A program made the position numbers and the translations under genes. A stretch of 64,000 bases of DNA from Deefgea rivuli DSM 18356 (GTDB lineage Bacteria > Pseudomonadota > Gammaproteobacteria > Burkholderiales > Chitinibacteraceae): assembly GCF_000620145.1 (NCBI RefSeq), contig NZ_JHVM01000013.1, forward strand, positions 62,001-126,000. The letters run 5' to 3'. The first letter of the stretch is position 1. Each line of letters starts with the position of its first letter. The notes beneath the pieces are model-generated. The model was given only the letters and a program-made list of their open reading frames with translations, made no database searches and was not told the DNA's origin. This document shows positions 9,980 through 31,851 of the stretch, in pieces.

Positions 9980-9982
9980 TTC

Positions 9983-10226: not shown

Positions 10227-10248
10227 CCCCGTTTTTAATGGATTTGCC

Positions 10249-10680: not shown

Positions 10681-10702
10681 TTTATTTAAAGTGAGTCGAA
10701 TA

Positions 10703-11176
10703 ATGCAGTGGCTGCTTGATTCTTTATATTTCATTAAAGACTCCCATCATGGCGGGGCTAAATTTATTCGTTATGGATTAATTGGTGGTAGTGCTGCAGT
10801 ACTCGATTTTTCTGTGTTTTTTGTGTGTTTCAAATTGCTGTTGGCTATTTCTTATTCTTCTACAATGATTCCTTTTCATGCAATATCGATTGCCAATACC
10901 CTTGGTATTCTTTCGGGGTTTGTGTGGGGTTTTTTTATGCAAAAGAAATGGGCATTTCAAGCTGATGGCCGCACGCAGTCTCAATTTGTATATACAACAT
11001 TGTTATTGATTTTTAATATCTTGGTTTCCAGTTGGGCGATTTATCCCCTATCAGAAATGTTAAACGGTAATGCTTCGATTGCAAAGTTAGTGATGCAAGT
11101 CCTTGTCGTTTTTTGGAATTATTTCATTTACAGTTATTTCATTTTTAAAGCTGCTGGAGTTGTTAATGAAAAATAA
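10703..11176 (+). CDS. Second GtrA-family membrane protein
   Basis: Encodes 157 residues from the ATG at 10703 (an in-frame GTG at 10691 adds four). Four TM helices. The opening FIRYGLIGGSAAVLDFSVFF and GFVWGFFMQKKWAFQ match the GtrA family pattern of a first TM with Gly/Ala and a K/R-x-W-x-F motif after TM2. It begins 22 bases after the first GtrA gene. Base composition drops sharply to A+T-rich here and stays so to 13918. The stop overlaps the next gene by 11 bases, so the two are probably translated together. Confidence 0.82.
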   Translation: MQWLLDSLYFIKDSHHGGAKFIRYGLIGGSAAVLDFSVFFVCFKLLLAISYSSTMIPFHAISIANTLGILSGFVWGFFMQKKWAFQADGRTQSQFVYTTLLLIFNILVSSWAIYPLSEMLNGNASIAKLVMQVLVVFWNYFIYSYFIFKAAGVVNEK

Positions 11177-18844: not shown

Positions 18845-19003
18845 TTAGATTCTGCCGGTGAGTAGCAAAATCAACAGAATAATCACGATCAAACCGACGC
18901 CACCACTCGGGCCATAGCCCCAGCTTTTACTGTGCGACCAGCTTGGGATGACGCCGATGAGCATCAAAATCAAAACAATTAATAATATAGTGGCTAAGCT
19001 CAT
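18845..19003 (-). CDS. DUF3309-type small membrane protein
   Basis: A 52-residue protein starting MSLATILLIVLILMLIG with two hydrophobic helices separated by the polar loop PSWSHSKSWGYGPSGGVG; the Gly-Tyr-Gly-Pro-Ser-Gly pattern is typical of DUF3309. AGGA lies eight bases before the ATG. Such proteins are widespread in proteobacterial stress loci; their function is unknown. It is the last of four minus-strand genes (20930 to 18845) that read as an operon, 45 bases after the hydrolase gene. Confidence 0.8.
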   Translation of the reverse strand: MSLATILLIVLILMLIGVIPSWSHSKSWGYGPSGGVGLIVIILLILLLTGRI

Positions 19004-19048
19004 GGTGGTTTTCCTAGTGTGAAATGAATGGCGTTGCCGCCAGATTGT

Positions 19049-19894
19049 TTAAGGCTGCGTATGCGCTGCCGAATTTGAATCTTGTAAAAAATTGAGTAAA
19101 TCTCGGCTAAGTCGATCTTTCGCTGTGGCAAAGAGGCCATGTGGGGCGTCTTCGTATTCGATGAGCGTTGATCCGGCGATCGCTTGCGCAGTCGCTCGGC
19201 TCATACTGACGGGTACCGTTTTATCGTTCGTGCCGTGAATAATCAGCGTCTGCACTTTGAACGCGGCCAAATCGGGGCGAAAGTCGGTCGTTGAAAACGA
19301 ATGCGCACAAGCTAAAGTCGCTTTCAAACTGGCCTGCATCGCCATTCCCCGCGCCCATTCGATAAGCGCTTCGCTCACCGGCTGGGCGATCAGGCCAATG
19401 CCGAAAAAGGATTTGAAAAAGCCCGCAAAAAACTGCGCACGGTCTTCATTAATATCCTGCGTCATATTGAAAAAATGTGCTTCGTCGATACCGTCAGGAT
19501 TGTCAGTTGTTTTCAACATATACGGGACAACGGACGAGATCAGTACCGCTTTACTGACTGATTTACCGCCATGCCGCGACATATAGCGGGCAATTTCACC
19601 GCCGCCCATTGAGAAGCCAACTAGCGTAACGCCTTCAACGCCCGTTTGCTGAATGACCGCCGCCAAATCATCAGCCAGCGTGTCGTAATCGTATCCGCTC
19701 CACGGCTGCGAAGAGCGGCCAAAACCGCGCCTATCGTAGCTAATGACGCGATAGCCCGCTTCGGCCAATGCCATCGCTTGATCGTCCCAACTATCGGATG
19801 ACAGCGGCCAGCCACTGATTAAAATCACCGGGCGACCCGTGCCCCAGTCTTTAACAAATAATTGTGTTTGATCTGCAGTCGTAATGGTGTACAT
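19049..19894 (-). CDS. Alpha/beta hydrolase, non-haem haloperoxidase/arylesterase-like
   Basis: Encodes 281 residues from the ATG at 19894, which has GGAG upstream; an in-frame extension to 19942 overlaps the preceding small gene and is rejected. Catalytic triad candidates: Ser95 in GFSMGG, Asp in the HGTNDKTVP turn, and His in DAPHGLF. The oxyanion segment SGWPLSSDSWD and YDRRGFGRSSQ are characteristic of the chloroperoxidase/arylesterase subfamily. There is no signal peptide, so it is cytoplasmic. Physiological substrates are unknown; perhydrolase or esterase activity is typical. It belongs to the small stress-type operon 18845-20930. Confidence 0.87.
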   Translation of the reverse strand: MYTITTADQTQLFVKDWGTGRPVILISGWPLSSDSWDDQAMALAEAGYRVISYDRRGFGRSSQPWSGYDYDTLADDLAAVIQQTGVEGVTLVGFSMGGGEIARYMSRHGGKSVSKAVLISSVVPYMLKTTDNPDGIDEAHFFNMTQDINEDRAQFFAGFFKSFFGIGLIAQPVSEALIEWARGMAMQASLKATLACAHSFSTTDFRPDLAAFKVQTLIIHGTNDKTVPVSMSRATAQAIAGSTLIEYEDAPHGLFATAKDRLSRDLLNFLQDSNSAAHTQP

Positions 19895-19931
19895 AGCAAA
19901 ACTCCGGTGATTGGATAGCAATAAACGATCC

Positions 19932-20006
19932 TTAATTAACAAATAGCGCGATCAAAATAATGATCGGAATAGGGATACCTAAGAAGTACAGTAAAAGTGA
20001 ACGCAT
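19932..20006 (-). CDS. Putative 24-residue membrane peptide
   Basis: Codes MRSLLLYFLGIPIPIIILIA followed by LFVN, a single hydrophobic helix. GGAG lies eight bases before the ATG, and it sits in line between two same-strand genes: 18 bases after the stop of 20025-20930, and its stop is 37 bases before the hydrolase start. The good ribosome-binding site and clean hydrophobic pattern support a real microprotein, though a peptide this short could be chance. Confidence 0.55.
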   Translation of the reverse strand: MRSLLLYFLGIPIPIIILIALFVN

Positions 20007-20024
20007 GATGGGCTCCGTTAAATG

Positions 20025-20930
20025 TTAAATATCGCGCTGTCGACCGCCATAAATCGCCGTCACACTCGCCGTGAATGCACCGATCAATAAAGAAATAAAC
20101 AGCCATAGCGCGGCATACGCCGAGGCTTTTCGATTGAGCTCTGCGGCGGCATTGGCGCGCAGCATTTCGGTATTAATTGCCGTTTGTAGGTTGTGAAAAC
20201 TTAAGGCGCTGCGTTGCTCGGCGGCAAGACGCGAAATACCGGTGTAATCGGTGACTCGCTCAGTGACATAGCGCAAATCATCGGCGGGTAATAAGCCCAA
20301 ACGCAGGCCATTGCTAAAAATCGCTGCAATTTCATCCGATGTTTTGCGGCTGAGTGGCGGTGTTTTTGCATTGGCTAAGGCGGGGAAATCTTGGCGGAAC
20401 AGGCCATCAATCAAATACGTTCGTACATCCTCGCTCAATTTCGGTGGCGCTAAAGCATCGACTCGGGCGGCAATCGCGGTATCAACTCGGCCTACAATCG
20501 GCTCACGATGCAAAATGGATGTAATCGCTGCACTCAATAACATGGCCGTGAGCAGAGTCGCCATCGCCCAAGACAGCAAACCATGCGCGCTGTCTCGAAA
20601 AAATACTTCATTGGTATCGACCTCTAGCCATTTCACTCTAAGGCGTCCAGTTAAATACCCACCCATGCCCGCTGCGACGAGCTGAGTTAAGGCCAGCCAT
20701 AAAATGGTCGAAATCCCTAAAGTGACAGCGCTCATGCCATTTTGCATCCATGGCGACATCGCCGATAAACCGAGACCAACGCCCAAGAGCAAGAGAATGA
20801 GCGACAAAGCGGCCGTAACGGCTGCGCCAGCCAAAATCGCCGCCCAAGACACCGCGCTGGCGTTAAAGAGTGAATGATCGATGGCACGCTGTGCTGTGCT
20901 CGCTGCTGTGGAAATGGGGAGTGTATTCAT
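20025..20930 (-). CDS. Conserved polytopic membrane protein of unknown function
   Basis: Encodes 301 residues. A polar N-terminus (about 1-25) leads to three or four TM helices (about 28-145, with VSWAAILAGAAVTAALSLIL and a Gly-rich GVGLGLSAMSPW). A soluble loop of about 110 residues follows (about 145-270, with several helical segments), then a final TM (about 275-295). I recognise the N-terminal pattern from proteobacterial stress loci but know no function. It heads a four-gene minus-strand operon and is divergent from the hybrid histidine kinase gene, sharing a 251-base regulatory region with dyad motifs. Confidence 0.72.
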   Translation of the reverse strand: MNTLPISTAASTAQRAIDHSLFNASAVSWAAILAGAAVTAALSLILLLLGVGLGLSAMSPWMQNGMSAVTLGISTILWLALTQLVAAGMGGYLTGRLRVKWLEVDTNEVFFRDSAHGLLSWAMATLLTAMLLSAAITSILHREPIVGRVDTAIAARVDALAPPKLSEDVRTYLIDGLFRQDFPALANAKTPPLSRKTSDEIAAIFSNGLRLGLLPADDLRYVTERVTDYTGISRLAAEQRSALSFHNLQTAINTEMLRANAAAELNRKASAYAALWLFISLLIGAFTASVTAIYGGRQRDI

Positions 20931-21014
20931 CGTGGCCTTTGTTCAGTGAAGCGGCCGCGATAGGCAGGCTGCTCTGGAAGATGAGCCACTGTGCGCCAAT
21001 GCAGATTGTGCGTC

Positions 21015-21030
21015 TGTGCGTTAGCGAACC
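21015..21030. promoter_or_regulatory. Candidate operator dyad TGTGCG-N4-CGAACC
   Basis: TGTGCGTTAGCGAACC, preceded by two more TGTGCG half sites at 20990 and 21007. It lies in the divergent region between the membrane protein (20930) and the hybrid kinase (21182). The same dyad occurs at 25260 and 31108. It equals TGTGC-N6-GAACM, the half-site spacing of Crp-family operators. Confidence 0.5.
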
Positions 21031-21080
21031 GATGCAAATGAACATGGGTTCAATCCTAGTGAGCGTTCAATCTAGCGCTA

Positions 21081-21096
21081 TGTTAGCTAGCAAACA
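21081..21096. promoter_or_regulatory. Candidate operator dyad TGTTAGCTAGCAAACA
   Basis: A 16-base dyad related to the site at 21015; the flanks GCGTCTGT (21011-) and ACAGACGC (-21101) make a larger inverted repeat around both sites. Confidence 0.4.
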
Positions 21097-21181
21097 GACG
21101 CTCATTGGCGAAGTGTGTGATGATCTGCGCGAGGTGCATACGCACTGGCCTTGACCGGCTCATCATCCACAAAGGCTAGAA

Positions 21182-23305
21182 ATGCAAAATAAGTACAATA
21201 TTTCATCGGCTGGCCTGATTAACACGGGCGCTGAAGACAGCGTGGAAGTGCAGCGCGAAGAGGCCTTGCTCAAAACCGGCGCCTTGCAGCGTGCGATTTT
21301 TAATAGCGCCAATTTCTCCAGCATCGCTACTGACGCCAAAGGCGTGATTCAGATTTTCAACGTCGGCGCTGAGCGGATGCTGGGTTTTGCCGCCGCTGAT
21401 GTGGTCAATAAAATCACGCCTGCTGATATTTCCGACCCGCAAGAAGTCATCGCTCGCGCCGCAGCGCTGAGTTTGGAATTGGGCGTGACGATTAGCCCCG
21501 GCTTTGAAGCCTTGGTGTTTAAAGCTTCGCGCGGCATCGAAGATATTTATGAACTGACTTATATTCGTGAAGACGGCAGTCGTTTTCCGGCCGTCGTCTC
21601 AGTAACGGCATTGCGCGATGAGCAAGAGACCATCATCGGTTATTTGCTGATTGGCACTGACAATACCGCACGCAAACAAGTGGAAGCTGAGCAGCAAAAG
21701 CTCGATCAACGCCTACGTGATCAACAGTTTTATACGCGTTCGCTGATTGAAGCGAATATCGATGCGATTATGACCACCGATCCGGCGGGGATTATTTCTG
21801 ATGTGAATAAGCAAATGGAAGCGCTGACTGGTTGCACGCGCGATGAATTAATCGGTGCGCCTTTTAAAAGCTTTTTCACCGATCCAGCCCGCGCCGAAGC
21901 GGGCATTAAACGCGTATTAAGCGAAAATAAAATCACCGATTACGAACTGACCGCCCGCGCTTGGGATGGCAAAGAAACAGTCGTGTCGTATAACGCGACG
22001 ACGTTTTATGATCGAGATCGCAATTTGCAAGGCGTGTTCGCTGCCGCGCGCGACGTCACGGAGCGCAAACGGCTCGATCAAATTCTTGCTGAAAATAATA
22101 TCGAGTTAGAACACGCCAAATCAGCAGCCGAGAAGGCCAATTTGGCCAAATCTGATTTCCTCTCCAGCATGAGCCACGAGTTGCGCACGCCTTTAAGCGC
22201 GATTTTGGGCTTTGCGCAACTGATCGAATCAGGCAACCCATTACCAACGCCCAATCAAAAACGCAGCCTCGATCAAATCCTACAAGCGGGCTGGTATTTA
22301 TTGGAGTTGATCAATGAAATCTTGGATTTGGCGCTCATCGAATCGGGTAAATTATCCTTATCGATGGAGCCGGTTTTACTCGCGGAAGTGATGCAAGAAT
22401 GCGAAGCGATGATCGAGCCGCAGGCGCTTAAACGTGGTATTGGCGTCAGCTTTCCAAAGTTTGAAGCGCTGCACTGCGTTCAAGGCGACCGTATTCGCAT
22501 TAAGCAAGTGCTGGTGAATTTGCTCTCGAACGCGATTAAATACAATAAAGTCGACGGCACGGTTACGGTGACCTGCGTGCAAGCCACGCCAGAGCGAATT
22601 CGGATTTGCGTTGCCGATACGGGTGAAGGTTTGTCGCCCGAGCAAATCGCCCAACTCTTTCAACCGTTTAATCGGCTCGGTCAAGAATCCAATACCGAAG
22701 AAGGCACTGGTATTGGCTTGGTCGTCACCAAGCGTTTGATTGAGTTGATGGACGGCAGCATCGGCTTTGAAAGCACGCTGGGCAGCGGCAGCGTATTTTG
22801 GGTGGAAATGAATTTAACGCAGGCGCTTCAGGCTGTTGAGATCGAAAGCGTGCATATCGAAACGACGCAAGTACGTACTTATTCTAAAACCGCGCTGTAT
22901 CGACTGCTGTATGTTGAAGATAATCCAGCCAATTTAATGCTGATTGAAGACCTGATTAGCCGGCGACCCGATATTAGCTTGCTGACGACGCGTGATGCCT
23001 TGAGCGGTATCACGATGGCGCAAACCTCGCAGCCCGATTTGATTTTAATGGACATTAATTTGCCTGGCATTAGTGGGATTGAAGCCTTGAAAATTCTGGG
23101 TGAAGACCCGTTAACGCAGCATATTCCGGTGATTGCGCTCAGCGCTAACGCCATTCCTAGAGATATTGAGAAAGGCTTGCAGGCGGGGTTTTTCCGCTAT
23201 TTGACCAAACCCATCAAAGTGAATGAATTTATGGAAACGCTCGATACTGCGCTCGAGTTTGTCCAGAAAAAAAACCTCTGCGCTAATGAAGAAGATCCAG
23301 CATGA
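21182..23305 (+). CDS. Hybrid sensor histidine kinase (PAS-PAS-HisKA-HATPase-REC)
   Basis: Encodes 707 residues, soluble. Two PAS/PAC modules (about 35-165 and 180-300) precede the HisKA domain, with phospho-acceptor His in SMSHELRTP near residue 330. The HATPase domain has the G2 box GTGIGL near residue 508. A C-terminal REC domain (about 575-695) has the acceptor Asp in LILMDINLP near residue 621. It presumably senses an internal signal through PAS and phosphorylates its own REC and the regulator encoded next. Its stop overlaps the next start (ATGA). AAAGG precedes the start codon. Confidence 0.92.
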   Translation: MQNKYNISSAGLINTGAEDSVEVQREEALLKTGALQRAIFNSANFSSIATDAKGVIQIFNVGAERMLGFAAADVVNKITPADISDPQEVIARAAALSLELGVTISPGFEALVFKASRGIEDIYELTYIREDGSRFPAVVSVTALRDEQETIIGYLLIGTDNTARKQVEAEQQKLDQRLRDQQFYTRSLIEANIDAIMTTDPAGIISDVNKQMEALTGCTRDELIGAPFKSFFTDPARAEAGIKRVLSENKITDYELTARAWDGKETVVSYNATTFYDRDRNLQGVFAAARDVTERKRLDQILAENNIELEHAKSAAEKANLAKSDFLSSMSHELRTPLSAILGFAQLIESGNPLPTPNQKRSLDQILQAGWYLLELINEILDLALIESGKLSLSMEPVLLAEVMQECEAMIEPQALKRGIGVSFPKFEALHCVQGDRIRIKQVLVNLLSNAIKYNKVDGTVTVTCVQATPERIRICVADTGEGLSPEQIAQLFQPFNRLGQESNTEEGTGIGLVVTKRLIELMDGSIGFESTLGSGSVFWVEMNLTQALQAVEIESVHIETTQVRTYSKTALYRLLYVEDNPANLMLIEDLISRRPDISLLTTRDALSGITMAQTSQPDLILMDINLPGISGIEALKILGEDPLTQHIPVIALSANAIPRDIEKGLQAGFFRYLTKPIKVNEFMETLDTALEFVQKKNLCANEEDPA

Positions 23306-24165
23306 AACTCACGCCAAACGATTTTTTTAATGCCTTTATTTTGATTGTTGATGATCAAAAAGCCAATGTCATGCTGCTAGAACAGCTACTGAGCGAGGCG
23401 GGTTACACCAATGTGCATGCGACGATGAATCCGCAAGACGTTTGTGTTTTGCATCGACAATACAATTTTGATTTGATTTTGCTCGATCTACAAATGCCAG
23501 AAATGGACGGTTTTCAAGTGATGGAATGCTTGAAAACCAATACGGGTGATGATTATTTGCCCGTGATTGTCTTGACTGCACAGCCCGGGCATAAATTGCG
23601 TGCGCTACAAGCGGGTGCCAAAGACTTTATTAGTAAGCCGTTTGATTTGGTCGAAGTCAAAACGCGAATTCACAATATGCTCGAAGTGCGCTTGCTGTAC
23701 AAAAAGCTCGAATCGTATAACCAACTGTTGGAAGCGACAGTCTTAGAGCGCACCGCACAATTATGCGAAAGCGAAGCGCGCTTTCGCAGCCTCACTGAGC
23801 TGGCCTCCGATTGGTATTGGGAGCAAGACGAGCACGAAAATTTCACCAAAGTATCGGGTCCGGTACTGGAAATGCTCGGCATTCGCGTCACCCCCTTGAT
23901 GGGCGACGAAACCACGAGCGAGCCAGTTGATGATTCCGGCTGGAATCCGGCCGAGCGCGAATGGCTGCAAGCCACCATCGCCGCGCGCCAACCGTTTCTG
24001 GATTTTGCCTTTAGCCGCACGCTCAGCGACGGCAGCAAGCGGCATTACCGCGTCAGCGGCGAACCGATGTTCGATCAAGCCTGCCGTTTTACCGGCTATC
24101 GCGGCATTGGCATTGAATGCCAAGCCTTGCCCAGTTTAAAGGTCAACCATGATCCTCTTACCTAA
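23302..24165 (+). CDS. Response regulator with REC and PAS domains
   Basis: Encodes 287 residues. An N-terminal REC domain (about 12-130) has the acidic pair in LIVDDQ, acceptor Asp in LILLDLQMPEMDG (near residue 60) and the conserved Lys in ISKPFD. A coiled linker (about 130-155) and a PAS domain (about 155-275, starting RFRSLTELASDWYWEQD) follow. There is no DNA-binding or enzymatic output, so it probably acts by protein-protein contact, perhaps back onto the kinase. It overlaps the kinase gene by four bases and the next gene by 17. Confidence 0.88.
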   Translation: MKLTPNDFFNAFILIVDDQKANVMLLEQLLSEAGYTNVHATMNPQDVCVLHRQYNFDLILLDLQMPEMDGFQVMECLKTNTGDDYLPVIVLTAQPGHKLRALQAGAKDFISKPFDLVEVKTRIHNMLEVRLLYKKLESYNQLLEATVLERTAQLCESEARFRSLTELASDWYWEQDEHENFTKVSGPVLEMLGIRVTPLMGDETTSEPVDDSGWNPAEREWLQATIAARQPFLDFAFSRTLSDGSKRHYRVSGEPMFDQACRFTGYRGIGIECQALPSLKVNHDPLT

Positions 24166-24862
24166 TCCTCAGCAAAATCAACTGCTCGCCGCGCTAAGCA
24201 GCGACGAAAGCGCGCGACTTAGCCCGCATTTAGAATTGGTGAGCATGCGGTTGGGCGATATGCTGTATCAGCCCAATGAGCAATTGCGCCACGCCTACTT
24301 TCCGACGACGGCGATTGTGTCTTTGCATTACGTCACCGAATCGGGCGCATCGGCCGAAGTCTCGGGCGTGGGCCACGAAGGCGTGGTCGGCATTCCGCTG
24401 TTTATGGGCGGCAACACCACCAGTAGCTCGGCCGTGGTGCAAACCGCTGGCCATGCTTATCGTCTGGATCGCGCCCTATTTAAAGAGGAGTTTAGCCGTG
24501 GCGGGGCTATGCAGCGGCGCTTGCTGAGCTATACCCAAGCGCTCATCACGCAAATGTTCCAAACCGCCGCCTGCAATCGCCACCACAGCATCGAGCAGCA
24601 ACTGTGCCGCTGGCTCTTGCTGACGCTAGATCGGATTCCAGCCGGTGAGTTTTTAATGACGCAAGAACTGGTCGCCAATACCTTGGGCGTGCGCCGTGAA
24701 AGCGTCACCGAAGCAGCCGGCCAATTGCAACGCGACGGCTACATCAGTTACCGTCGCGGCCACATCTCGGTACTAAGCCGCACGGGCTTAGAGCAACTTA
24801 GCTGCGAATGTTATGCCGTGGTTAAAAAAGAATTGATTCGCTTGGAAACGGCGACACACTAA
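24149..24862 (+). CDS. Crp/Fnr-family transcription regulator
   Basis: Encodes 237 residues. A cyclic-nucleotide-binding-like beta barrel (about 10-130) is followed by the dimer helix and a C-terminal winged HTH (about 165-225, with TQELVANTLGVRRESVTEAA as the recognition region). The barrel lacks the RxS/T phosphate-binding cassette of true CRP (it has GNTTSSSAVV), and no N-terminal Fe-S cysteine cluster of FNR is seen, so the ligand is unknown. The start ATG has AAAGG upstream and lies inside the preceding gene (17-base overlap). It is the most likely output of the kinase/regulator pair and a candidate binder of the TGTGCG dyads. Confidence 0.88.
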   Translation: MILLPNPQQNQLLAALSSDESARLSPHLELVSMRLGDMLYQPNEQLRHAYFPTTAIVSLHYVTESGASAEVSGVGHEGVVGIPLFMGGNTTSSSAVVQTAGHAYRLDRALFKEEFSRGGAMQRRLLSYTQALITQMFQTAACNRHHSIEQQLCRWLLLTLDRIPAGEFLMTQELVANTLGVRRESVTEAAGQLQRDGYISYRRGHISVLSRTGLEQLSCECYAVVKKELIRLETATH

Positions 24863-24918
24863 ATCGAGATCAACTTGTGGCCGTGCCAGCGCTGCGCGTC
24901 AAAGCAACAAGATCGGCC

Positions 24919-25102
24919 ATGTTCAGATTACGTGCTGATGGTTTAAAGTGCCTGCGGCACGGTGTTTTGGTGTCGCAATCCGCGACAGGGACTTCTTTCT
25001 TTGCGTCGCCAAAGAAAGAAGCAAAGAAAGGCGACCCGGGCGCTTAGACGGGGATTTTAAGCCCCAGCTCAACGAGCGCGGCACAGCATAAAATCTGAAC
25101 AT
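24919..25102. repeat. 184 bp element with 11 bp terminal inverted repeats, copy 1
   Basis: Bounded by ATGTTCAGATT and its perfect inverse AATCTGAACAT. It contains a smaller hairpin, CTTCTTTCTTTG / CAAAGAAAGAAG, and no gene. A longer, inverted, internally expanded copy lies at 56852-57110. With the palindrome at 25118 it fills most of the 490-base gap between the Crp-type regulator and the DUF4398 lipoprotein. Confidence 0.75.
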
Positions 25103-25117
25103 TGCCACAAGTCAACA

Positions 25118-25163
25118 GTATTGCCTTGCAGGTCATATCAATAAATGGCTACAAGGCAATACC
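25118..25163. repeat. Dispersed 45-47 bp palindrome, copy 4
   Basis: GTATTGCCTTG ... CAAGGCAATACC; the outer 11 bases of each arm are perfectly complementary. It lies 16 bases after the 184 bp element. Confidence 0.7.
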
Positions 25164-25259
25164 AACAGCACACTATCCAGCCTTGCCGCCGTGCAGGGCT
25201 TTTTTTTGCGCGGCGTTTGCTGATATTCATTTCGCATTAATCCAAATGATTACCGCCTA

Positions 25260-25275
25260 TGTGCGACGGCGAACC
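25260..25275. promoter_or_regulatory. Candidate operator dyad TGTGCG-N4-CGAACC upstream of DUF4398 lipoprotein
   Basis: TGTGCGACGGCGAACC, 78 bases before the lipoprotein start. It matches the sites at 21015 and 31108 at 11 or more of the 12 non-spacer positions. Confidence 0.5.
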
Positions 25276-25352
25276 GACTGTCTGCGTCAAACGCCGTAAA
25301 AAGGAGTCATTCAGGGTGATTTAGCCCTTTTCAAAGTAAAGCGAGCACAACG

Positions 25353-25733
25353 ATGTTTATCTATTACAAGCAATGTTTCACCGTTTTGGGCCTGAGCGCC
25401 ATTCTGTTGGTATCGGCATGCAGCAGCATGAAAGGGCCTGCGACAACTGAAGTGGCGGTGTCGGCTGCGGCGGTTGATAGTGCGGCGGCGGCAGGTGCGA
25501 CTGAATTTGCGCCAGTTGAAATGAATTTGGCACGCGAAAAAATGACTTTGGCACGCGCTGCCTTGGCCAAAAAAGACTATGCCAAAGCCACTGATCTGGC
25601 CAACCAAGCCGAAGCCGATGCGAAATTAGCCCAAACCAAAGCGGCATCCAGCAAAGCACAAGCGGCAGCCCAAGGCTTGCAAGACGACATTCAAGTGCTG
25701 CGCGATGAACTGATCCGCGCCAACAATAAATAA
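25353..25733 (+). CDS. DUF4398-domain lipoprotein
   Basis: Encodes 126 residues. The N-terminus ends in a lipobox (LLVSAC, Cys near residue 23), so it should be lipidated and exported. The mature part is Ala-rich and helical (SAAAVDSAAAAGATEFAPVE), with the DUF4398 pattern of A-P-x-E followed by A-x-x-K repeats (ARAALAKKDYAKATDLA, QAEADAKLAQTKA). The function of the domain is unknown, but it is usually paired with OmpA-like lipoproteins, as here (next gene 80 bases downstream). Confidence 0.85.
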   Translation: MFIYYKQCFTVLGLSAILLVSACSSMKGPATTEVAVSAAAVDSAAAAGATEFAPVEMNLAREKMTLARAALAKKDYAKATDLANQAEADAKLAQTKAASSKAQAAAQGLQDDIQVLRDELIRANNK

Positions 25734-25813
25734 TCTCGCCCTTAAATAATCTCACTAGCACTTTACGATGCGGGCGCGATTGCGCCGCATTTTCAGCGAC
25801 CTCGGAGTTCATT

Positions 25814-26677
25814 ATGAATAAATTCACCCCAGCCCTTTTAGCCATGACCACTTTGCTTTGGGCATGTAGCACCACGCCGACGCAAACGTCTTTGCTGGAT
25901 CAAACACGCAGCGAATATAGCCTAGCGAAAAATAACCCAAGCATCGCCAAATACGCGCCGCTGGAATTAAAGCAAGCGGGCGAAGCGCTCGACCAAGCCA
26001 ATGCCGCAGCGAGCAAAAAAGAATCGATCGAAGTCGTTGATGGTTTGGCGTATGTGGCCAAACAAAAAATTGCGTTAATGCAAAGTACGGCGACGCAAAA
26101 ATCGGCCGAAGCCGATATGGCCAACAGTAGCAAGCAACGCGATCAAGTACGTTTAGAGCAAAGAACCAACGAAGCTAATCAAGCAACGGCCAGCGCAGTG
26201 CAAGCCAAAGCCGATTTGCAAGACGCACAGCGCGAAACCCAAGTGGCCAAAGCTGATGCATCGAGTTTGTTGCAGCAATTGAGCGATTTGAAAGCCAAAA
26301 ATACCGAACGCGGGATTGTGATTACTTTGGGTGATGTGCTGTTTGCCAGCAACCAATCGCAGTTGACGGCGGCGGGTGTGGCGACGGCGCAAAAGCTAGC
26401 TGATGTCTTGCAAAAAAATCCGCAGCGCAAAGTATTGATCGAAGGTTTTACCGATAACACCGGCACAGTGGCGCATAACCAAATGCTCTCCACGCGCCGT
26501 GCTACAGCGGTAAGCGCTGCGTTGCAACAATTGGGCATCGCCAGCGAACGCATTGCGGTGCAAGGTTATGGCGAGAGTTTCCCAGTGGCCTCGAATGCGA
26601 CCAGCCAAAATCGCCAATTAAATCGCCGCGTTGAAATTGTATTGTCGGACGACAACGGCAAAATCAACCCACGCTAA
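25814..26677 (+). CDS. OmpA-family lipoprotein with DUF4398-like N-terminal half
   Basis: Encodes 287 residues. Signal peptide and lipobox (LLWAC, Cys near residue 17), then a long helical, Ala/Gln-rich region (about 30-165) of DUF4398 type. The C-terminal OmpA peptidoglycan-binding domain (about 175-280) has GDVLFASNQSQLTAAG, the binding segment IEGFTDNTGTVAHNQMLSTR and the closing NRRVEIV. It should link the outer membrane to peptidoglycan. Together with the preceding lipoprotein it forms an envelope-stability pair within the stress island. Confidence 0.9.
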   Translation: MNKFTPALLAMTTLLWACSTTPTQTSLLDQTRSEYSLAKNNPSIAKYAPLELKQAGEALDQANAAASKKESIEVVDGLAYVAKQKIALMQSTATQKSAEADMANSSKQRDQVRLEQRTNEANQATASAVQAKADLQDAQRETQVAKADASSLLQQLSDLKAKNTERGIVITLGDVLFASNQSQLTAAGVATAQKLADVLQKNPQRKVLIEGFTDNTGTVAHNQMLSTRRATAVSAALQQLGIASERIAVQGYGESFPVASNATSQNRQLNRRVEIVLSDDNGKINPR

Positions 26678-26759
26678 TCAGCGCGATTAAACCGATTTTT
26701 TGAGTGCAGTGCGGCGAACTTTGCCAATCTGCACCCCTTTTATTTTTAGGAGTTTTACG

Positions 26760-27062
26760 ATGTTTGAATCTAATAGCCATAAAATCGATCAAGACCTGAA
26801 TGTTTTAGTGAAAGACGTTCAAGCGCTATTTCAAGAAGCCGCGAGTTTAAGTGGCGATAAAGCCGACGCGCTGCGCCAGCAAGCGATGCAGTTGCTCGAT
26901 AGCGCAGTCGATACGCAAAAAACGGCTTCTGAGCGCCTGTATTGTTCAGGGAAGAAAATCGCTGGCACGGCCTATGATTGCGCAAAAACGCACCCATGGA
27001 GCACCGTCGCCGCAGTTGCTGGTTTTGGTCTATTGCTCGGCGTGATTTTGGGTCGTAAATAA
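26760..27062 (+). CDS. DUF883 (ElaB/YqjD-type) membrane-anchored protein
   Basis: Encodes 100 residues from the ATG at 26760, which has AGGAG upstream; an in-frame start at 26700 is rejected. Amphipathic helices (about 1-70) precede DCAKTHPWSTVAAVAGFGLL, the conserved HPW-(T/S) anchor, and a C-terminal TM with GxxLGxxLGRK. ElaB, YgaM and YqjD of this family bind ribosomes and sit in the inner membrane in stationary phase. It is 83 bases after the OmpA-like gene and followed by a terminator. Confidence 0.88.
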   Translation: MFESNSHKIDQDLNVLVKDVQALFQEAASLSGDKADALRQQAMQLLDSAVDTQKTASERLYCSGKKIAGTAYDCAKTHPWSTVAAVAGFGLLLGVILGRK

Positions 27063-27118
27063 ACTGATTTAACGGCTGGCGCAGGCGATGCATCGAGTAT
27101 CCAGCACCAGCGTTTACG

Positions 27119-27152
27119 AAGCCCAACTATTGCGGTCAATGTTGGGCTTTAT
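27119..27152 (+). terminator. Probable terminator after DUF883 gene
   Basis: AAGCCCAAC / GTTGGGCTT stem with a 13-base loop, then a short TTTAT. The T-run is weak. Confidence 0.6.
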
Positions 27153-27283
27153 CGTATCCATCTCAAGCTTTAAATCATCTGTGCTTTGACGTCATCTAAG
27201 CGGCTTAAAATCAAAACTCAGAACTGAATGCTCTATCGTGCTGCGCAGTGTTGTGGCCTCACTCCATGCTCAAAGGATATCCA

Positions 27284-28312
27284 ATGGTAAGGCGTACCAG
27301 TAAAAAGCGATGGAGTGGTTCATTTGGGCGCGCCTTGAATGCAATGACACGAATTTCGCTGCGCGCCACGTCAAAAGCAATCAAAGATTCCTTGAGTGTT
27401 GCACCCGCCGCCAAAAAAACGCGCAGTAAAAAAACCACTGCTGTTTCGGCTAACTGGACGACAGGCATCGCGATGGGTACGGCAGGCCCAAGGCGCTATC
27501 GACTCTATAAACCACCGGGTGTTCAGCACCATGAGCAGCTGCCGCTGTTGGTGATGTTGCACGGCTGCGGTCAGGATGCACAAGCGATGGCGAGCAGTAG
27601 CCGCATGAATCAGATTGCCGCCCGTGAGCGATTTTTTGTGCTGTACCCTGAGCAAGATCGCTTGTCGAATCTGCAAGGCTGCTGGAACTGGTTTGACACC
27701 CGAACAGGTAGAGCGCAGGCAGAAGAAAATTCAATTATTGCGGCCATCGAAACGGTTTGCCTGACGCAGCCCGTGGATCGCAACAAAGTCGCCCTCGCGG
27801 GCCTTTCTGCGGGTGCCAGTATGGCGGTATTGCTCGCAACGCAGCACCCAAAGCGGTTTGCTGCGATTGCCATGCATTCAGGCATCGCGCCGGGGGTTGC
27901 TCACTCATCGGTCGGTGCGATCAAAGCGATGTTTGGCCAAAGTGTGAATCCGGCACCATTGCCACCCATCCCGCGCAGTACACAACTACCCTCGCTGCTG
28001 GTGATTCACGGTTCTGCTGATCACATCGTGGCACTGAGTAATGGGGAAGAAGCAGCCATGCGCTGGGGTGAACGAGTGGGTGCAAAAGCAGGTAAATCGC
28101 GCACTGTACAGCGCGGCGCGCGTTATGCCGCAACCATCACCGATTACAAAAAAGCGGGTCATCTGATCGCAACGCTCTGCGTTGTCGACGGCCTTGGCCA
28201 TGCATGGAGTGGTGGCGCCGCCAGCCAGCCTTTTAGCGACCCCAAAGGCCCCGATGCATCACGCATGATCTGGGCTTTTGTCGCCAAGCAATTTGAGCGA
28301 ACGGTCGATTAG
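27284..28312 (+). CDS. PHB-depolymerase-family esterase
   Basis: Encodes 342 residues from the ATG at 27284 with AAAGGA upstream. The first 60 residues are basic and low-complexity (KKTRSKKTTAV) with no Sec signal, suggesting a cytoplasmic or granule-associated enzyme. The alpha/beta hydrolase domain (about 60-342) has LHGCGQDA (oxyanion), the nucleophile Ser175 in GLSAGAS, Asp in VIHGSADHIV and His in GLGHAWSGG. The family includes polyhydroxybutyrate depolymerases and feruloyl or acetyl esterases (LpqC type). The substrate here is inferred only. Confidence 0.85.
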   Translation: MVRRTSKKRWSGSFGRALNAMTRISLRATSKAIKDSLSVAPAAKKTRSKKTTAVSANWTTGIAMGTAGPRRYRLYKPPGVQHHEQLPLLVMLHGCGQDAQAMASSSRMNQIAARERFFVLYPEQDRLSNLQGCWNWFDTRTGRAQAEENSIIAAIETVCLTQPVDRNKVALAGLSAGASMAVLLATQHPKRFAAIAMHSGIAPGVAHSSVGAIKAMFGQSVNPAPLPPIPRSTQLPSLLVIHGSADHIVALSNGEEAAMRWGERVGAKAGKSRTVQRGARYAATITDYKKAGHLIATLCVVDGLGHAWSGGAASQPFSDPKGPDASRMIWAFVAKQFERTVD

Positions 28313-28399
28313 CTGGATTCAATATTTTGACGATACCCATCAGTGCCACTGGAATAACAGCTATCTACATAGCTGGCAGCTCTCGACCCAAAGCGGTCA

Positions 28400-28912
28400 T
28401 TATTTAGTTCCGTTAGTTTTCCTCGGCAGAAGCCCAAAAAATGCCTCTAAGTTATCTTTGGGGACAAGGAATCGAGCTGTGACGCTAAGTGCTTGGTATT
28501 TCTCTTCGGACTCCTCCTTGGCGATGTAGCAAACATCCTTTCCGCGGCTTGTATTTGCCCGTATTCCTATATCTAGCACCTCGTTCCGAAATGCCCCAGA
28601 TATGGATACATTAAGCACATCGTAGATTTCAAACTCTCCGTCACCGGGGTGGCCTAATGGTCCATTTGTATAACTTCCTAGCCTATTTCCATCCATATTA
28701 ATTTGATAATCTTTCTTCATATCAAATGTTGTCCCCGAAAACATTCGGGCTGAAAAAGGGTGGATGGTAAGTGTCTTCCCACGAAACATGCCATTGACGT
28801 AGTTGCGCAGCATTATTTCATACTCATTGACATATATTTCCAAAGTTCCATCCGTGATTGACACTCCATTTTCAGAAATATCTCCGATAAATTCGAAACG
28901 GGTTGTTGGCAT
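28400..28912 (-). CDS. Orphan protein of unknown function
   Basis: Encodes 170 residues, soluble, no signal peptide, predicted mostly beta (MPTTRFEFIGDISENGVSI, then many short alternating strands). It has no motif I can assign. The DNA is richer in A+T and its codon use differs from the neighbours. The left flank carries CGACCCAAAGCGGTCATT (28384-28401), a sequence type I associate with intergenic repeats next to orphan genes in other proteobacteria, and it overlaps the stop codon. It may be a recently acquired cassette gene. Confidence 0.6.
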   Translation of the reverse strand: MPTTRFEFIGDISENGVSITDGTLEIYVNEYEIMLRNYVNGMFRGKTLTIHPFSARMFSGTTFDMKKDYQINMDGNRLGSYTNGPLGHPGDGEFEIYDVLNVSISGAFRNEVLDIGIRANTSRGKDVCYIAKEESEEKYQALSVTARFLVPKDNLEAFFGLLPRKTNGTK

Positions 28913-29378
28913 ATGACTTACCTGACATTTGAGTCGATGCGATTGAATCGTGAAGCATAATAATCGTTGGAGCGAAACTGAAGCTACAGAGCTGAACTTC
29001 CGCTATTGGCCGATAGCCGTAGCTCAAACGCAGTTTAACGCAGCTATCGAAAACGAGCATTATACGCAGATTGAGGTGGGCGAAATAACTCAAGGCGATG
29101 GGGGATTAATGGATTGAGCCATGATTTTTAGCCAAGCCGATCAACGTCTATCGCTTCGCCCAAGCTGTGCGCCCATCAACGTTAATCACTCGTTAGTGAA
29201 TCATCTTGGCAAACCCTATTTCGTCATTCCGGCGAAAGCCGGAATCTAGCTGCAATGCTTATTTGACCATCGCTCTGGATACCGGCTTTCGCCGGTATGA
29301 CGATCTACTGAGTTGTTTAGCTAATCAGGAATTGATTTCAGCACCACATCACTACGCAGACGCGATTGAAAAAAACAA
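28913..29378. other. 466-base gap with a palindromic element, no gene seen
   Basis: Holds the probable promoter of the orphan gene, a segment with GCTGAACTTCCGCTATTGGC (28990-29009) and the ATTCCGGC-type element at 29222-29302. Weak reading frames here lack ribosome-binding sites. Confidence 0.5.
29222..29302. repeat. ATTCCGGCGAAAGCC-type palindromic element
   Basis: Begins CGTCATTCCGGCGAAAGCCG and ends with its near inverse CCGGCTTTCGCCGGTATGACG. Each end is itself a 20 bp palindrome (ATTCC-N10-GGAAT, ATACC-N10-GGTAT). It resembles the Neisseria dRS3 pattern (ATTCCC-N8-GGGAAT) in layout. Related copy at 10069-10148. Confidence 0.75.
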
Positions 29379-29933
29379 TTATTGATTCGTTCTGGCCGTC
29401 GATTGCTTGAGTAACTGAGTCAACTGCGCAATTTGCTGCTGTTGCAGCGTGATCAATTCTGCCCATTGCGTTTCGCGCAAGACGTCGACTTTTTGGTGTA
29501 GTGCCATCACTTCCAGCTCGGCTTTCAGATTGACTTCGTAATCGTGCTGCGCGGCGGCGCGATCTTTGGCGGCGCTGCGGTTTTGCGACATCAAGATAAT
29601 CGGCGCTTGTAAGGCGGCGAGCATCGACAAAATCAGGTTCAAAAATACAAAGGGATAGGGATCAACACCACGCGTCAAAATCAACGTATTAAGGGCAATC
29701 CACAGCACCAGCAAACCGATAAATAGCAGGATAAACGTCCACGATCCACCAAAAATCGCAATGCGATCCGCGAGTTTTTGCCCGATTGTTGATGCCTCAT
29801 CCATCTCGGTATTGGTATTGCGGCTGATATGGCTTCTTTGCCGCAGTCGCAGCAGCACTTGCTGCTCGCTGTCGTTTAGATTGCGATGGTTTTTTATAAA
29901 TTCATTGGCAAAATCATCGATCAGATTATTCAT
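29379..29933 (-). CDS. DUF1003 inner-membrane protein
   Basis: Encodes 184 residues from the ATG at 29933, which has AAGGA six bases upstream; a longer frame reaches 30074 but has no better site. An N-terminal cytoplasmic helix region (about 1-60) leads to two TM helices (about 68-90 and 100-122) with the DUF1003 hallmarks ADRIAIFGGSWTF, DPYPFVFLNLILSMLAALQAP and MSQNRSAAKDR. A charged coiled tail follows (ELITLQQQQIAQLTQLLKQ). Function unknown. It lies 148 bases downstream of the BON-domain gene on the same strand. Confidence 0.88.
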   Translation of the reverse strand: MNNLIDDFANEFIKNHRNLNDSEQQVLLRLRQRSHISRNTNTEMDEASTIGQKLADRIAIFGGSWTFILLFIGLLVLWIALNTLILTRGVDPYPFVFLNLILSMLAALQAPIILMSQNRSAAKDRAAAQHDYEVNLKAELEVMALHQKVDVLRETQWAELITLQQQQIAQLTQLLKQSTARTNQ

Positions 29934-30046
29934 GTTCGTCCTTGTATTCAGATTTCCTCGGTGCTTGCCATAACTAAAAAAACCGCCTTTTTTCATCGGC
30001 GGGGAAGATAAAGAAATTTGCATACAGGCTCGATCATGCAGTGATT

Positions 30047-30072
30047 GGCGCACCGCCCTAGAGCGGTGCGCC
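30047..30072. other. GC-rich hairpin between BON and DUF1003 genes
   Basis: Perfect 10 bp stem GGCGCACCGC / GCGGTGCGCC with a six-base loop, 10 bases after the BON gene stop, without a T-run. It could protect the 3' end of the BON mRNA or weaken read-through into the DUF1003 gene. Confidence 0.55.
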
Positions 30073-30081
30073 ATACTGAGT

Positions 30082-30924
30082 TTAGAAAGTCAGAGATTGC
30101 GCTTTTACGCTTTTTACGCCCAATACGTTTTTAGCCAATTCAATCGCTAAAGAACGCTCTGCGCCGCTGGTGACTTTGCCGCTTAAAGTCACCACGCCAC
30201 CTTGTGTTTTCACGTTGATGTCAGAGCCCGCCACATTGCTGGAATACAAGTAAGTCGATTTCACTTTCGCGGTGATCCAGCTATCGCTAATGCTGCGCTC
30301 TGCATCAAGTGCAGCGCTTTTGGCGGTATCAGCGGCATTGAGCTTGGTGCCGCCGACGATCAATTGATTGTCGACCGCGACTACGCCACGCGTTGTCATT
30401 GCCAAGCGGCCTGCAACAGCTTTGGATTCGGCGGTTTTGGCACTACCGCGCAGCAGCACTTTGCCGGCGTTGGTGTCGACCGTGGCGCTTAAACCATCGG
30501 TTTGCTTGCTCCACATGATTTTGGATTTAATCGCTGCGGTGATGTAGGCATCGTCAGTCACCTCACCATAGCTGCGCGTGGTCGTTGCGGGCGGCGCGAC
30601 ATAATCGGCTTGCACCACAATTTGGTTATCGACTTCTTTAATTCCGCTCACACCCAAAGCGATTTGTTTGGCGAGATCTTTATTGACGCTGTCTTCAACG
30701 CGGCCGGTGATGGTGGCTTTACCGCTTTTGACGCTGACTTTCAAATCATTGGCGCGCAAATACGGGCTGAGCGCATAGGTGGTCCAGATTTGGCTTTCTT
30801 GTTTGGCTTCAACAATTTCTTGGGAAACGGTTTCTGCGAAGGCCGGGGCGCTGATCGTCACCATGGCAATCATGGCTGCGACCATGCTGGAAGCAAGTAG
30901 ACGTTGAGGGTATTGGATTTTCAT
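30082..30924 (-). CDS. Periplasmic protein with three BON domains (OsmY-like)
   Basis: Encodes 280 residues. A signal peptide (cleavage after APAFA, near residue 30) is followed by three BON repeats, about 45-108, 125-190 and 210-278. Each has the pattern helix-(I/V)-x-V-x-(T/S)-x-x-G-x-V-x-L-x-G-x-V (for example NVKTQGGVVTLSGKV in the last). OsmY has two such domains and is an osmotic and stress periplasmic chaperone that binds phospholipid; three is a less common count. It is divergent from the CsbD gene across a region with two TGTGCG dyads. Confidence 0.9.
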   Translation of the reverse strand: MKIQYPQRLLASSMVAAMIAMVTISAPAFAETVSQEIVEAKQESQIWTTYALSPYLRANDLKVSVKSGKATITGRVEDSVNKDLAKQIALGVSGIKEVDNQIVVQADYVAPPATTTRSYGEVTDDAYITAAIKSKIMWSKQTDGLSATVDTNAGKVLLRGSAKTAESKAVAGRLAMTTRGVVAVDNQLIVGGTKLNAADTAKSAALDAERSISDSWITAKVKSTYLYSSNVAGSDINVKTQGGVVTLSGKVTSGAERSLAIELAKNVLGVKSVKAQSLTF

Positions 30925-31042
30925 AAAATAACTCCGTAAAGAAGAAAGTCACTCAGTGCGATTCAAGATGAATTAAAGCAACCGTAGCGGTCTGTGCAGC
31001 ACTGGACTTGTCGCTAGCTTAATACTGACTAGATCACAGGTC

Positions 31043-31060
31043 TGTGCGTTAACTCGCACA
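31043..31060. promoter_or_regulatory. Candidate operator: perfect dyad TGTGCG-N6-CGCACA
   Basis: TGTGCGTTAACTCGCACA, an exact 6+6 dyad with spacer two bases longer than the related sites. It lies in the 329-base divergent region between BON (30924) and CsbD (31254) genes. Confidence 0.5.
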
Positions 31061-31107
31061 AGTCGCTTAAGACGCAGAGTCAACTCAATGAAAGTTAACA
31101 TCAGCTT

Positions 31108-31123
31108 TGTGCGCCAACGAACA
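31108..31123. promoter_or_regulatory. Candidate operator dyad TGTGCG-N4-CGAACA
   Basis: TGTGCGCCAACGAACA, 130 bases before CsbD and about 185 before the BON gene start on the other strand. It is the best match to the consensus shared with 21015 and 25260. Confidence 0.5.
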
Positions 31124-31253
31124 GACTTTGATTGCTCGGATTGATTAATCTGGCTGCAGTGGAACAACCGCCGCCCTAAACATTGGCGGTGATACGGATG
31201 CTGCGTTGGCAATATCGTCAATGGCATGCCGAAATAGAAAAGGAGTAGGCGCG

Positions 31254-31463
31254 ATGAACTGGGATATCGTTGAAGGAAATTGGCTGCAATTGAAAGGCAA
31301 AATCCAGCAAGAATGGGGCAATCTAACGGATGACCATTTAGATGTGATTGCAGGCCAGCGCGAAAAATTGCTGGGGCAATTGCAAGAAGCCTACGGCATT
31401 TCTAAAGACGTGGCCGAAGAAAAAATCAAAGACTTTGAAGCGCGTAATACACCGCCAAAATAG
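31254..31463 (+). CDS. CsbD-family stress protein
   Basis: Encodes 69 residues from the ATG at 31254, with a strong AAGGAG upstream; a start at 31206 in frame is rejected. MNWDIVEGNWLQLKGKIQQE and WGNLTDDHLDVIAGQREKL are the classic CsbD/YjbJ sequence (general stress response, sigma-B in Bacillus, RpoS in E. coli). It is small, charged and cytoplasmic. It is followed 73 bases later by a BON lipoprotein gene, probably co-expressed. Confidence 0.93.
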   Translation: MNWDIVEGNWLQLKGKIQQEWGNLTDDHLDVIAGQREKLLGQLQEAYGISKDVAEEKIKDFEARNTPPK

Positions 31464-31536
31464 GTTTTCAACACGATCTATTTGCCGCACGAATGCGGTG
31501 AATGGCTAAAAATACTGACCCATTTGGAGTATGACT

Positions 31537-31851
31537 ATGAAACCCATTAGCAAATTTTTATCTGCCGCCTTCGTTGCTGTCGCTTTATTGTCGGCGGTCG
31601 GTTGCTCATCGACTGCCAAGCAAGAAGGCACGGGCGAATATATTGACGACAGCGTGATTACCACTAAAGTAAAAGCCGCCATCTTGGATGAGCCAACGCT
31701 TAAAGTCGCTGAAATCAACGTTGAAACCTTTAAAGGTACTGTGCAATTGAGCGGCTTTGTTAGCTCGCCAACGGCAGCGGCTAAAGCGGTGCAAGTGACT
31801 CGCACTGTGAAAGGCGTGAAATCAGTTAAAAACGATATGCAAATTAAGTAA
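31537..31851 (+). CDS. Single-BON-domain lipoprotein
   Basis: Encodes 104 residues from the ATG at 31537 (GGAG eight bases before; another ATG at 31531 is too close to it). Signal peptide with lipobox LLSAVGC (Cys near residue 23), then one BON domain (about 38-104) starting DDSVITTKVKAAIL and ending VKSVKNDMQIK. It is similar to the periplasmic, outer-membrane-facing BON proteins of the OsmY/DolP group. It is the last gene of the stress island and is followed by a terminator. Confidence 0.9.
   Translation: MKPISKFLSAAFVAVALLSAVGCSSTAKQEGTGEYIDDSVITTKVKAAILDEPTLKVAEINVETFKGTVQLSGFVSSPTAAAKAVQVTRTVKGVKSVKNDMQIK

Follow-up and report, generated by a model that had tools for sequence, protein, structure and literature searches.

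An island of stress-related genes in Deefgea rivuli, lying within the 64,000-nucleotide stretch of DNA analysed here (the window), carries a repeated dyad, TGTGCG-N4-CGAACM, in three of its intergenic regions, which raises the question of what protein, if any, recognizes it. A preliminary description read the dyad as a Crp-family operator and pointed to a Crp-type regulator encoded at 24149 within the island. This reading is supported by the spacing of the element, its rediscovery in an unbiased dyad count, its co-occurrence with the regulator and a class II promoter geometry; with a probability of about 0.8, the dyad is the predicted operator of the Crp/FNR regulator encoded at 24149-24862, which would act as a class II activator. 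All five sequences originally listed can be found at their positions (Table 1), and a scan of the whole genome (3.71 Mb) for TGTGCGN4CGAACM finds three matches and no more, each of them in the island and on the + strand (two for a reversed-letter control). Other dispersed repeats are also present in the intergenic regions of the island.

Table 1. Genes, predicted operators and candidate promoter elements of the island (window coordinates).
Feature	Position	Strand	Details	Basis
Protein of no Pfam family	20025..20930	-	divergent from kinase operon; possible operator 1 target	Pfam negative
Operator 1	21011..21034		TGTGCG-TTAG-CGAACC; - strand reading CATCGGTTCGCTAACGCACAGACG scores better	matrix 24.1 bits
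Possible -10 of operator 1 (+ reading)	21052..21057	+	AATCCT	
Operator 2	21077..21100	+	ATGTTAG-CTAG-CAAACAGACG; 5' of kinase-REC/PAS-Crp operon	matrix 23.4 bits
Possible -10 of operator 2	21119..21124	+	GATGAT, offset 42	
Hybrid histidine kinase	21182..23305	+	PAS, HisKA, HATPase, REC; first gene of apparent regulator operon	Pfam
REC protein	23302..24165	+	weak PAS match, no DNA-binding domain found	Pfam
Crp/FNR-family regulator	24149..24862	+	cNMP_binding fold + HTH_Crp_2	Pfam
Operator 3	25256..25279	+	TATGTGCG-ACGG-CGAACCGAC	matrix 22.8 bits
-10-like element of operator 3	25297..25302	+	TAAAAA, offset 41, without final T; predicted start ~25309	
DUF4398 lipoprotein-like	25353..25733	+	predicted target	Pfam
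DUF4398/OmpA protein	25814..26677	+	likely in operon with DUF4398 lipoprotein-like gene	Pfam
DUF883 protein	26760..27062	+	ElaB-like, below ElaB cut-off; likely in DUF4398-OmpA operon	Pfam, NCBIfam
DUF1003 protein	29379..29936	-	3' of BON, possibly on BON transcript	Pfam
Triple-BON protein	30082..30924	-	OsmY-like, below OsmY cut-off; predicted target	Pfam, NCBIfam
-10 of operator 4	31016..31021	-	TAAGCT, offset 41; predicted start ~31009	
Operator 4	31039..31062	-	TTGTGCGAGTTAACGCACAGACC; 5' of BON gene	matrix 21.4 bits
Operator 5	31104..31127	+	TTTGTGCG-CCAA-CGAACAGACT; 5' of CsbD	matrix 24.5 bits
-10 of operator 5	31146..31151	+	TAATCT, offset 42; predicted start ~31158	
CsbD-like protein	31254..31463	+	predicted target	Pfam
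Single-BON protein	31531..31851	+	likely in CsbD operon	Pfam

Bare-word statistics are uninformative here: if two mismatches are allowed, the window holds the pattern at chance level (10 occurrences against an expected 12.7), and genome-wide the loose palindrome TGTNCGN4CGNACA, at one mismatch, shows no enrichment, its count (69) being below that of the control (99). The significance of the window sites rests on a matrix that came from elsewhere, seeded with the dyad of the unbiased count and refined on 80 other regulator loci, window excluded. With this matrix the five sites are the top five of the window (21.4-24.5 bits), the sixth position reaching 9.9, and 200 dinucleotide shuffles of the window gave one position in total at or above 21 bits. 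The repeated word is confirmed as real. The DUF883 gene has no operator of its own, no window site besides the five scoring above 9.9 bits.

Two details of the preliminary description have to be amended. The dyad at 31043, presented as perfect with an N6 spacing, is present, but its score comes via the right half (CGCACAGACC, - strand); the family spacing is N4, and the left half of this operator is out of register. Neither is the element confined to the island, as a sixth site of equal quality can be found on contig C6 of the same genome. At E<=10 this genome yields ten model matches, namely seven in the island, the C6 site and C11:73117 on both strands; the latter, inside a TolA-like reading frame (family name by eye), was set aside as chance. 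The best match of the genome (E 0.033) misses the E<=0.01 cut used for relatives.

The same word, TATGTGCG-nTAG-CGCACAGAC, emerges from an unbiased gapped dyad count over 80 loci of regulator homologues, window excluded. Run on gapped 4-mers in the intergenic DNA of these loci, this count gives TGTG-N9-ACAG 59 times, versus 4.8 expected, in 33 loci, and one palindrome fits all 45 top gapped pairs among those listed. Genes in these loci were predicted with a purpose-made codon-usage caller. Equal frequency in coding DNA would have spoken against an operator; the matrix finds 241 intergenic sites (202 kb) versus 18 coding ones (1,111 kb), with at least one intergenic site in 71 of the 80 loci. 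Once the five window sites are added, 8 of the 246 intergenic sites fall between convergent genes. An altered recognition helix was considered for the nine loci without a site and rejected, all of them keeping LGVRRE. Where a site has a single possible target gene, the strong half points towards that gene in 108 of 131 pairs, and 38 of the 72 usable loci have a site 5' of the regulator gene or of the operon to which it appears to belong. Regarding targets, 187 predicted target genes are no longer than 900 aa; of 120 taken at random, 117 entered a Pfam tally, three cut-off genes being dropped. Of 120 controls drawn, 99 were kept, 20 being cut at a locus end and one being a regulator gene. Control genes came from outside locus positions 9000-11500, which mostly keeps regulator genes out of them, although at least one (L063:866-1579) is still a regulator gene. 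The tallied targets include 26 Crp genes, in part because the loci were chosen by regulator.

The presence of a Crp-type regulator within the island is borne out by matches to PF00027 and PF13545 over cut-off. Its AlphaFold2 model (mean pLDDT 90.4) displays the Crp/FNR architecture, i.e., a cNMP-type beta-roll, a long dimer helix and an HTH_Crp, and its best Foldseek matches are MtbCRP (E 3.7e-13), GlxR and FNR. Among 15 island proteins scanned with Pfam, two match no family, none is a sigma factor, and the sole DNA-binding domain is that of the regulator. The recognition helix of E. coli CRP contacts DNA through R180/E181, as stated in PMC10127613; R and E are kept at these positions in the 24149 protein, while the third R of RE....R (R185 in CRP) is replaced by E. 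GlxR and MtbCRP, the nearest solved structures, share only 17-18% identity with it and were solved with cAMP, whereas the Glu and Arg of the GlxR phosphate-binding cassette, which characterize cAMP-binding CRPs, are Ile and Thr in the 24149 protein, a further difference from E. coli CRP. FNR and ANR share its fold and the class II activation proposed here, but the 24149 protein lacks an FNR-type N-terminal Cys cluster for [4Fe-4S], its first Cys being residue 142; the conserved Cys/His set of the regulator comprises C142, H145, H146, C219 and C221.

Site and regulator can also be compared across 81 relatives, counting the regulator as present at E<1e-30 and a site as strong at a model match E<=0.01, under stricter filters and among the 150 best matches listed. 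Strong sites occur in 23 of 30 genomes with the regulator versus 4 of 51 without (p 2e-10; all Fisher values given here are too small, because the genomes are related). None of the regulator loci of the 30 relatives is near-identical to a training locus. Among the matches listed, which merge into 139 places, 71 of the 125 in regulator genomes lie within 20 kb of a homologue, where at most 2.6 are expected. The other 54 have no homologue within 20 kb and thus lie outside the kind of DNA used for model training; such places are found in at least 17 of 30 regulator genomes versus at least 6 of 51 others (p 3e-5). This far-place test used 137 places, some opposite-strand duplicates being left out, and both lists give 54 far places and 14 in other genomes. 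Four genomes counted as regulator-less hold strong sites: G051 carries part of a regulator at the edge of a contig, and the sites in G014, G025 and G055 have no such explanation. At the looser E<=1, some match occurs in 62 of 81 genomes, including 12 in G079 and 10 in G080. The exact TGTNCGNTANCGNACA occurs in 19 of 30 genomes with the regulator versus 3 of 51 without, a comparison that is not independent because the pattern was chosen after seeing the regulator loci of the same genomes.

These counts bear on the alternative that a host housekeeping CRP/FNR protein (Crp/Vfr or Anr/Fnr) binds the palindrome and that the island merely uses it. The TGT half-site and core spacing do resemble the CRP operator, TGTGA-N6-TCACA, further Crp/FNR proteins may exist in the window genome, and G004 and G005, of the same genus and without the regulator, hold one exact TGTNCGNTANCGNACA each. 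However, the six genomes of the genus that lack the regulator yield only 0-1 model matches each at E<=1, strong sites track the 24149-type regulator across the 81 genomes, and most distant CsbD genes lack sites, which makes this alternative quite unlikely.

The CsbD genes are instructive in this respect. Thirty CsbD loci were fetched, one being the window's own, and a site was scored at >=12 bits upstream. Own genome excluded, a site precedes all five CsbD genes that have a regulator within 20 kb; of the CsbD genes farther away in regulator genomes, 1 of 15 has one, and where no regulator was counted the figure is 2 of 9. Whether a regulator exists somewhere in the genome is without effect (6 of 20 versus 2 of 9, p 1.0). 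Over all 49 CsbD places, a model match lies upstream in at least 7 of 13 near the regulator versus at least 6 of 36 far from it, the list of matches ending at E about 0.064. Proximity to the regulator, not its mere presence in the genome, is what matters for CsbD sites; the genome-wide concentration upstream of CsbD/BON/DUF883-type genes suggested earlier holds only in part, for CsbD genes near the regulator but seldom for distant ones.

With regards to promoter geometry, a -10-like TAnnnT stands at one fixed offset from the operator, 66% of 240 sites having it at 41 and 12% at 42, versus 1-7% at other offsets tested; the relaxed xAnnnT is found at 41/42 in 189 of 240 sites (controls 28 and 13). 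With this offset the operator would be centred near -41.5, where CRP/FNR activators sit at class II promoters; a centre at -41.5 is given for the class II position in PMC5957442. Centre and -10 come together with no independent -35, as at class II promoters, the starts being predicted. In the window, xAnnnT occurs at 41/42 towards the own gene in four of five sites (p 0.0008), two of the five -10s being weak; operator 1 has it at 41 both ways (AATCCT facing the kinase operon, CACAGT facing 20930). Apart from the -10, which the operator does not overlap, no conserved block or shared flanking sequence surrounds the sites. An alternative, ECF-like sigma promoter with GnACAGAC as -35 and TAnnnT as -10 would account for the strong right half, the exact -10 spacing and the orientation towards genes; it appears improbable, given that the left half mirrors the right one and is conserved (positions 2-9, up to 1.86 bits each), unlike a -35 box, that the -10 is of sigma-70 type and that no sigma factor was found in the scanned island proteins. 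Repression by the same regulator is slightly less probable still: Crp/FNR proteins are also able to repress and two of the three island regions have two sites, but the fixed position near -41.5, without another conserved -35 block or overlap with the -10, is activator geometry. Chance or a REP-like repeat can be dismissed, despite the palindrome and the dispersed repeats nearby, as five sites in one window lie far beyond the shuffles, sit in promoter gaps and share no flanks except the -10.

Activation by the 24149 regulator would proceed as follows. A regulator dimer would bind the 22-bp palindrome TATGTGCG-nTAG-CGCACAGA, which is centred ~41.5 bp 5' of the predicted start of transcription and stands in for the -35 box, a placement from which class II activation would follow, and would touch RNA polymerase at promoters having only a sigma-70-type -10 (TAnnnT). 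Five units would be switched on: kinase-REC-Crp, by which the regulator would control its own operon, DUF4398-OmpA-DUF883, BON(-DUF1003), CsbD-BON and one unlinked secreted-protein gene on contig C6. The signal may come from the linked kinase/REC pair or from the conserved Cys/His set.

Compared with E. coli CRP, the fold, the TGT half-site core, the operator layout (TGTGC-N6-GCACA here) and the predicted -41.5 centre are alike, while the half-site is TGTnCG instead of TGTGA and sites are few in the window genome, five of six lying in the island. Nor is the operator that of FNR, TTGAT-N4-ATCAA. The island target products resemble the families of the RpoS/general stress genes osmY, csbD and elaB, but their genes are linked to a Crp-type regulator and its operator.

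The system is best read as a class II Crp/FNR regulon that is accessory and often autoregulated. More tentatively, it might be an undescribed, self-contained accessory envelope-stress regulon on an island moving between bacteria, in which a Crp/FNR subfamily lacking the cAMP-pocket residues, possibly a metal or redox sensor via C142, H145, H146, C219 and C221, would be fed by the kinase/REC pair, autoregulated and served by one class II operator for all units; a literature search of titles and abstract openings found no description of the regulator-operator pair, which is not proof of its absence from print. For a large group of Crp/FNR regulators (one genome scan confirmed at least 593 stretches), an operator, a promoter architecture and a target set can now be predicted. 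Poorly understood stress proteins (CsbD, BON, DUF4398, glycine-zipper and DUF883) are thereby tied to a specific regulator, and a direct test of what they answer to is now possible.

The five sequences named in the preliminary description are present in the island at the positions reported there, and the word TGTGCGN4CGAACM has three matches in the whole 3.71-Mb genome, all inside one 10-kb stretch of the window. Loose versions of the word are unremarkable in frequency, and independent evidence was therefore sought around homologues of the Crp-type protein encoded in the island (the regulator). Scanning GTDB genomes with an alignment of these homologues gave, among the matches listed, 80 loci, each spanning at most about 20 kb, by their titles mainly from Beta- and Gammaproteobacteria (Massilia, Duganella, Undibacterium, Rhodoferax, Accumulibacter, Nitrosomonas, Pseudomonas, Halomonas, Photobacterium, and many metagenome-assembled genomes). 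When every pair of 4-mers at gaps of 0 to 16 was counted in the intergenic DNA of these loci, with no motif given, the best 45 pairs listed were all compatible with the single palindrome TATGTGCG-nTAG-CGCACAGAC; TGTG-N9-ACAG was observed 59 times against 4.8 expected, in 33 loci. A 24-bp weight matrix, seeded with the rediscovered dyad and refined on the 80 loci with the window left out, gives the five sites the highest scores in the window (21.4-24.5 bits; the next position has 9.9), and 200 shuffled windows hold one position in total that reaches 21 bits.

Genes in the 80 loci were called by a purpose-built codon-usage caller. The intergenic placement first described for the island extends to these loci, where 241 of 259 sites of at least 13 bits are intergenic (202 kb of intergenic versus 1,111 kb of coding DNA). 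At least one intergenic site can be found in 71 of the 80 loci, convergent gaps hold 8 of 246 intergenic sites (the window's included), and the strong half, CGnACAGAC, faces the gene in 108 of 131 site-gene pairs with a single possible target. Alignment of 240 sites with their flanks reveals one extra conserved block, TAnnnT (A 75%, T 71%), and no -35 block outside the operator. This hexamer begins 41 bases past matrix position 0: it is found at offset 41 in 66% of the sites, at 42 in 12% and at each other offset from 26 to 61 in 1-7%, while on the mirror side offset 41 reaches 10%. Because the palindrome is centred at 11.5, this offset and the usual -10-to-start distance would place the operator centre at about -41.5. 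According to PMC5957442, CRP sits at -41.5 at class II promoters. Four of the five window sites have xAnnnT at 41/42 towards their own gene (binomial p 0.0008 against a control rate of 28/240). Another contig of the same genome has a sixth site of equal quality, which scores 22.6 bits, carries TAAAAT at offset 41 and is divergent from a glycine-zipper protein.

Features of the predicted regulon and neighbouring repeats (window positions unless a locus or contig is named)
Feature	Coordinates	-10-like sequence	Remark
Predicted island operators	21011, 21077, 25256, 31039, 31104		three intergenic regions
Regulator, Crp/FNR family	24149-24862
Predicted unit kinase-REC-Crp		AATCCT and GATGAT	two operators; offset 41/42
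Predicted unit DUF4398-OmpA-DUF883		TAAAAA	not counted among the four with xAnnnT
Predicted unit BON, possibly with DUF1003		TAAGCT	offset 41/42
Predicted unit CsbD-BON		TAATCT	offset 41/42
Secreted-looking 140-aa protein, no Pfam family	L139 (locus of sixth site) 1028-1450 (-)		downstream of unlinked sixth site
Dispersed repeat	24930-25110		just 3' of regulator gene
REP-like inverted repeat	29224-29300
Operator cluster, relative G030	C1:3606607-3618231		no regulator gene found nearby
Operator cluster, relative G048	C1:2021035-2030704		no regulator gene found nearby

In a scan of 15 island proteins (18848-31851), two of which have no Pfam family, the sole DNA-binding domain found is that of the regulator. 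A homologue (E<1e-30) occurs in 30 of 81 relatives, own genome included. With a profile that combines operator and -10, derived from the 80 loci, matches at E<=0.01 are found in 23 of these 30 genomes versus 4 of the 51 others (Fisher p 2e-10; the window genome's own best E is 0.033); at E<=1 some match is found in 62 of the 81, so that only strong matches discriminate. Of the four other genomes with strong sites, G051 carries an incomplete regulator where a contig ends. Good operator-plus-minus-10 matches are also present in G014, G025, and G055, in which a regulator homologue was not detected. Among the matches listed in regulator genomes, 71 of 125 places are no more than 20 kb away from a homologue, where at most 2.6 are expected. 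Since circularity had to be guarded against, the 30 regulator loci fetched from relatives were compared with the training loci, none being near-identical (95%), and distant places were counted: 17 of the 30 regulator genomes, versus 6 of 51 others, have a place separated from every homologue by more than 20 kb (p 3e-5). The pattern TGTNCGNTANCGNACA is present in 19 of 30 versus 3 of 51 (reversed control 5 and 8), a count that is not independent because these genomes' regulator loci had been seen before the pattern was chosen; of the three exceptions to it, two belong to the window's own genus (G004 and G005). As genomes share ancestry, all these co-occurrence p-values are too small. In 38 of the 72 loci that could be used, the regulator or its apparent operon is preceded by a site, which would make autoregulation common. 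Nine loci have no site, yet LGVRRE is kept there. Are the clusters in G030 and G048 satellite islands controlled in trans?

The predicted structure of the regulator is confident (pLDDT 90.4) and matches those of MtbCRP, GlxR, and FNR. cAMP is an unlikely ligand, since the Glu and Arg of the GlxR phosphate cassette align with Ile and Thr. C142, H145, H146, C219, and C221 are invariant in a 50-sequence alignment and, with H145 nearly so, in a more diverse one of 28 sequences, which may point to a metal or redox sensor; a CNRHH-type motif (residues 142-146) and a CEC motif (219-221) are conserved across the family. At the positions of R180/E181, which PMC10127613 names as base contacts of E. coli CAP, R and E are retained in the recognition helix, consistent with the TGT common to both operators.

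Neither the regulator nor a CsbD gene was found in the six same-genus genomes searched, so the island would be accessory, gained here or lost there. The dispersed repeat has 62 full or partial matches in the genome and comprises two blocks, about 75 bases apart in several other copies. The REP-like repeat, TCATTCCGGCGAAAGCCGGAATC, has 15 genome places per strand with up to two mismatches, and its reversed control has none.

In a Pfam tally of 117 predicted target genes, HTH_Crp_2 (26), PAS (12), HATPase_c (9), BON (7), CsbD (6), glycine zipper (4), DUF4398 (3), OmpA (3), DUF5670 (2), and PRC (2) are found, versus PAS (5), BON (2), HATPase_c (2), and cNMP_binding (2) in 99 control genes from the same loci. 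Neither CsbD nor HTH_Crp_2 is among the 25 control families listed; for HTH_Crp_2 the contrast is partly by design, since the control genes were taken at a distance from the regulator. The suggestion that sites concentrate upstream of CsbD genes stands near the regulator (5 of 5) and mostly fails far from it (1 of 15); with the regulator anywhere in the genome, 6 of 20 CsbD genes have a site versus 2 of 9 without it, and presence alone is not predictive. The site thus marks the regulator's own gene set, not the CsbD family.

With the dyad recovered at regulator homologues and strong sites concentrated in genomes that encode one, the original observation and its main interpretation, a Crp-family operator, hold. 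The best-supported mechanism, with a probability of roughly 0.8, is that the island's own Crp/FNR regulator would exert class II activation at the predicted operators. Among the entries listed by literature searches, none described this operator, promoter layout, or target set; the kind of system is already known.
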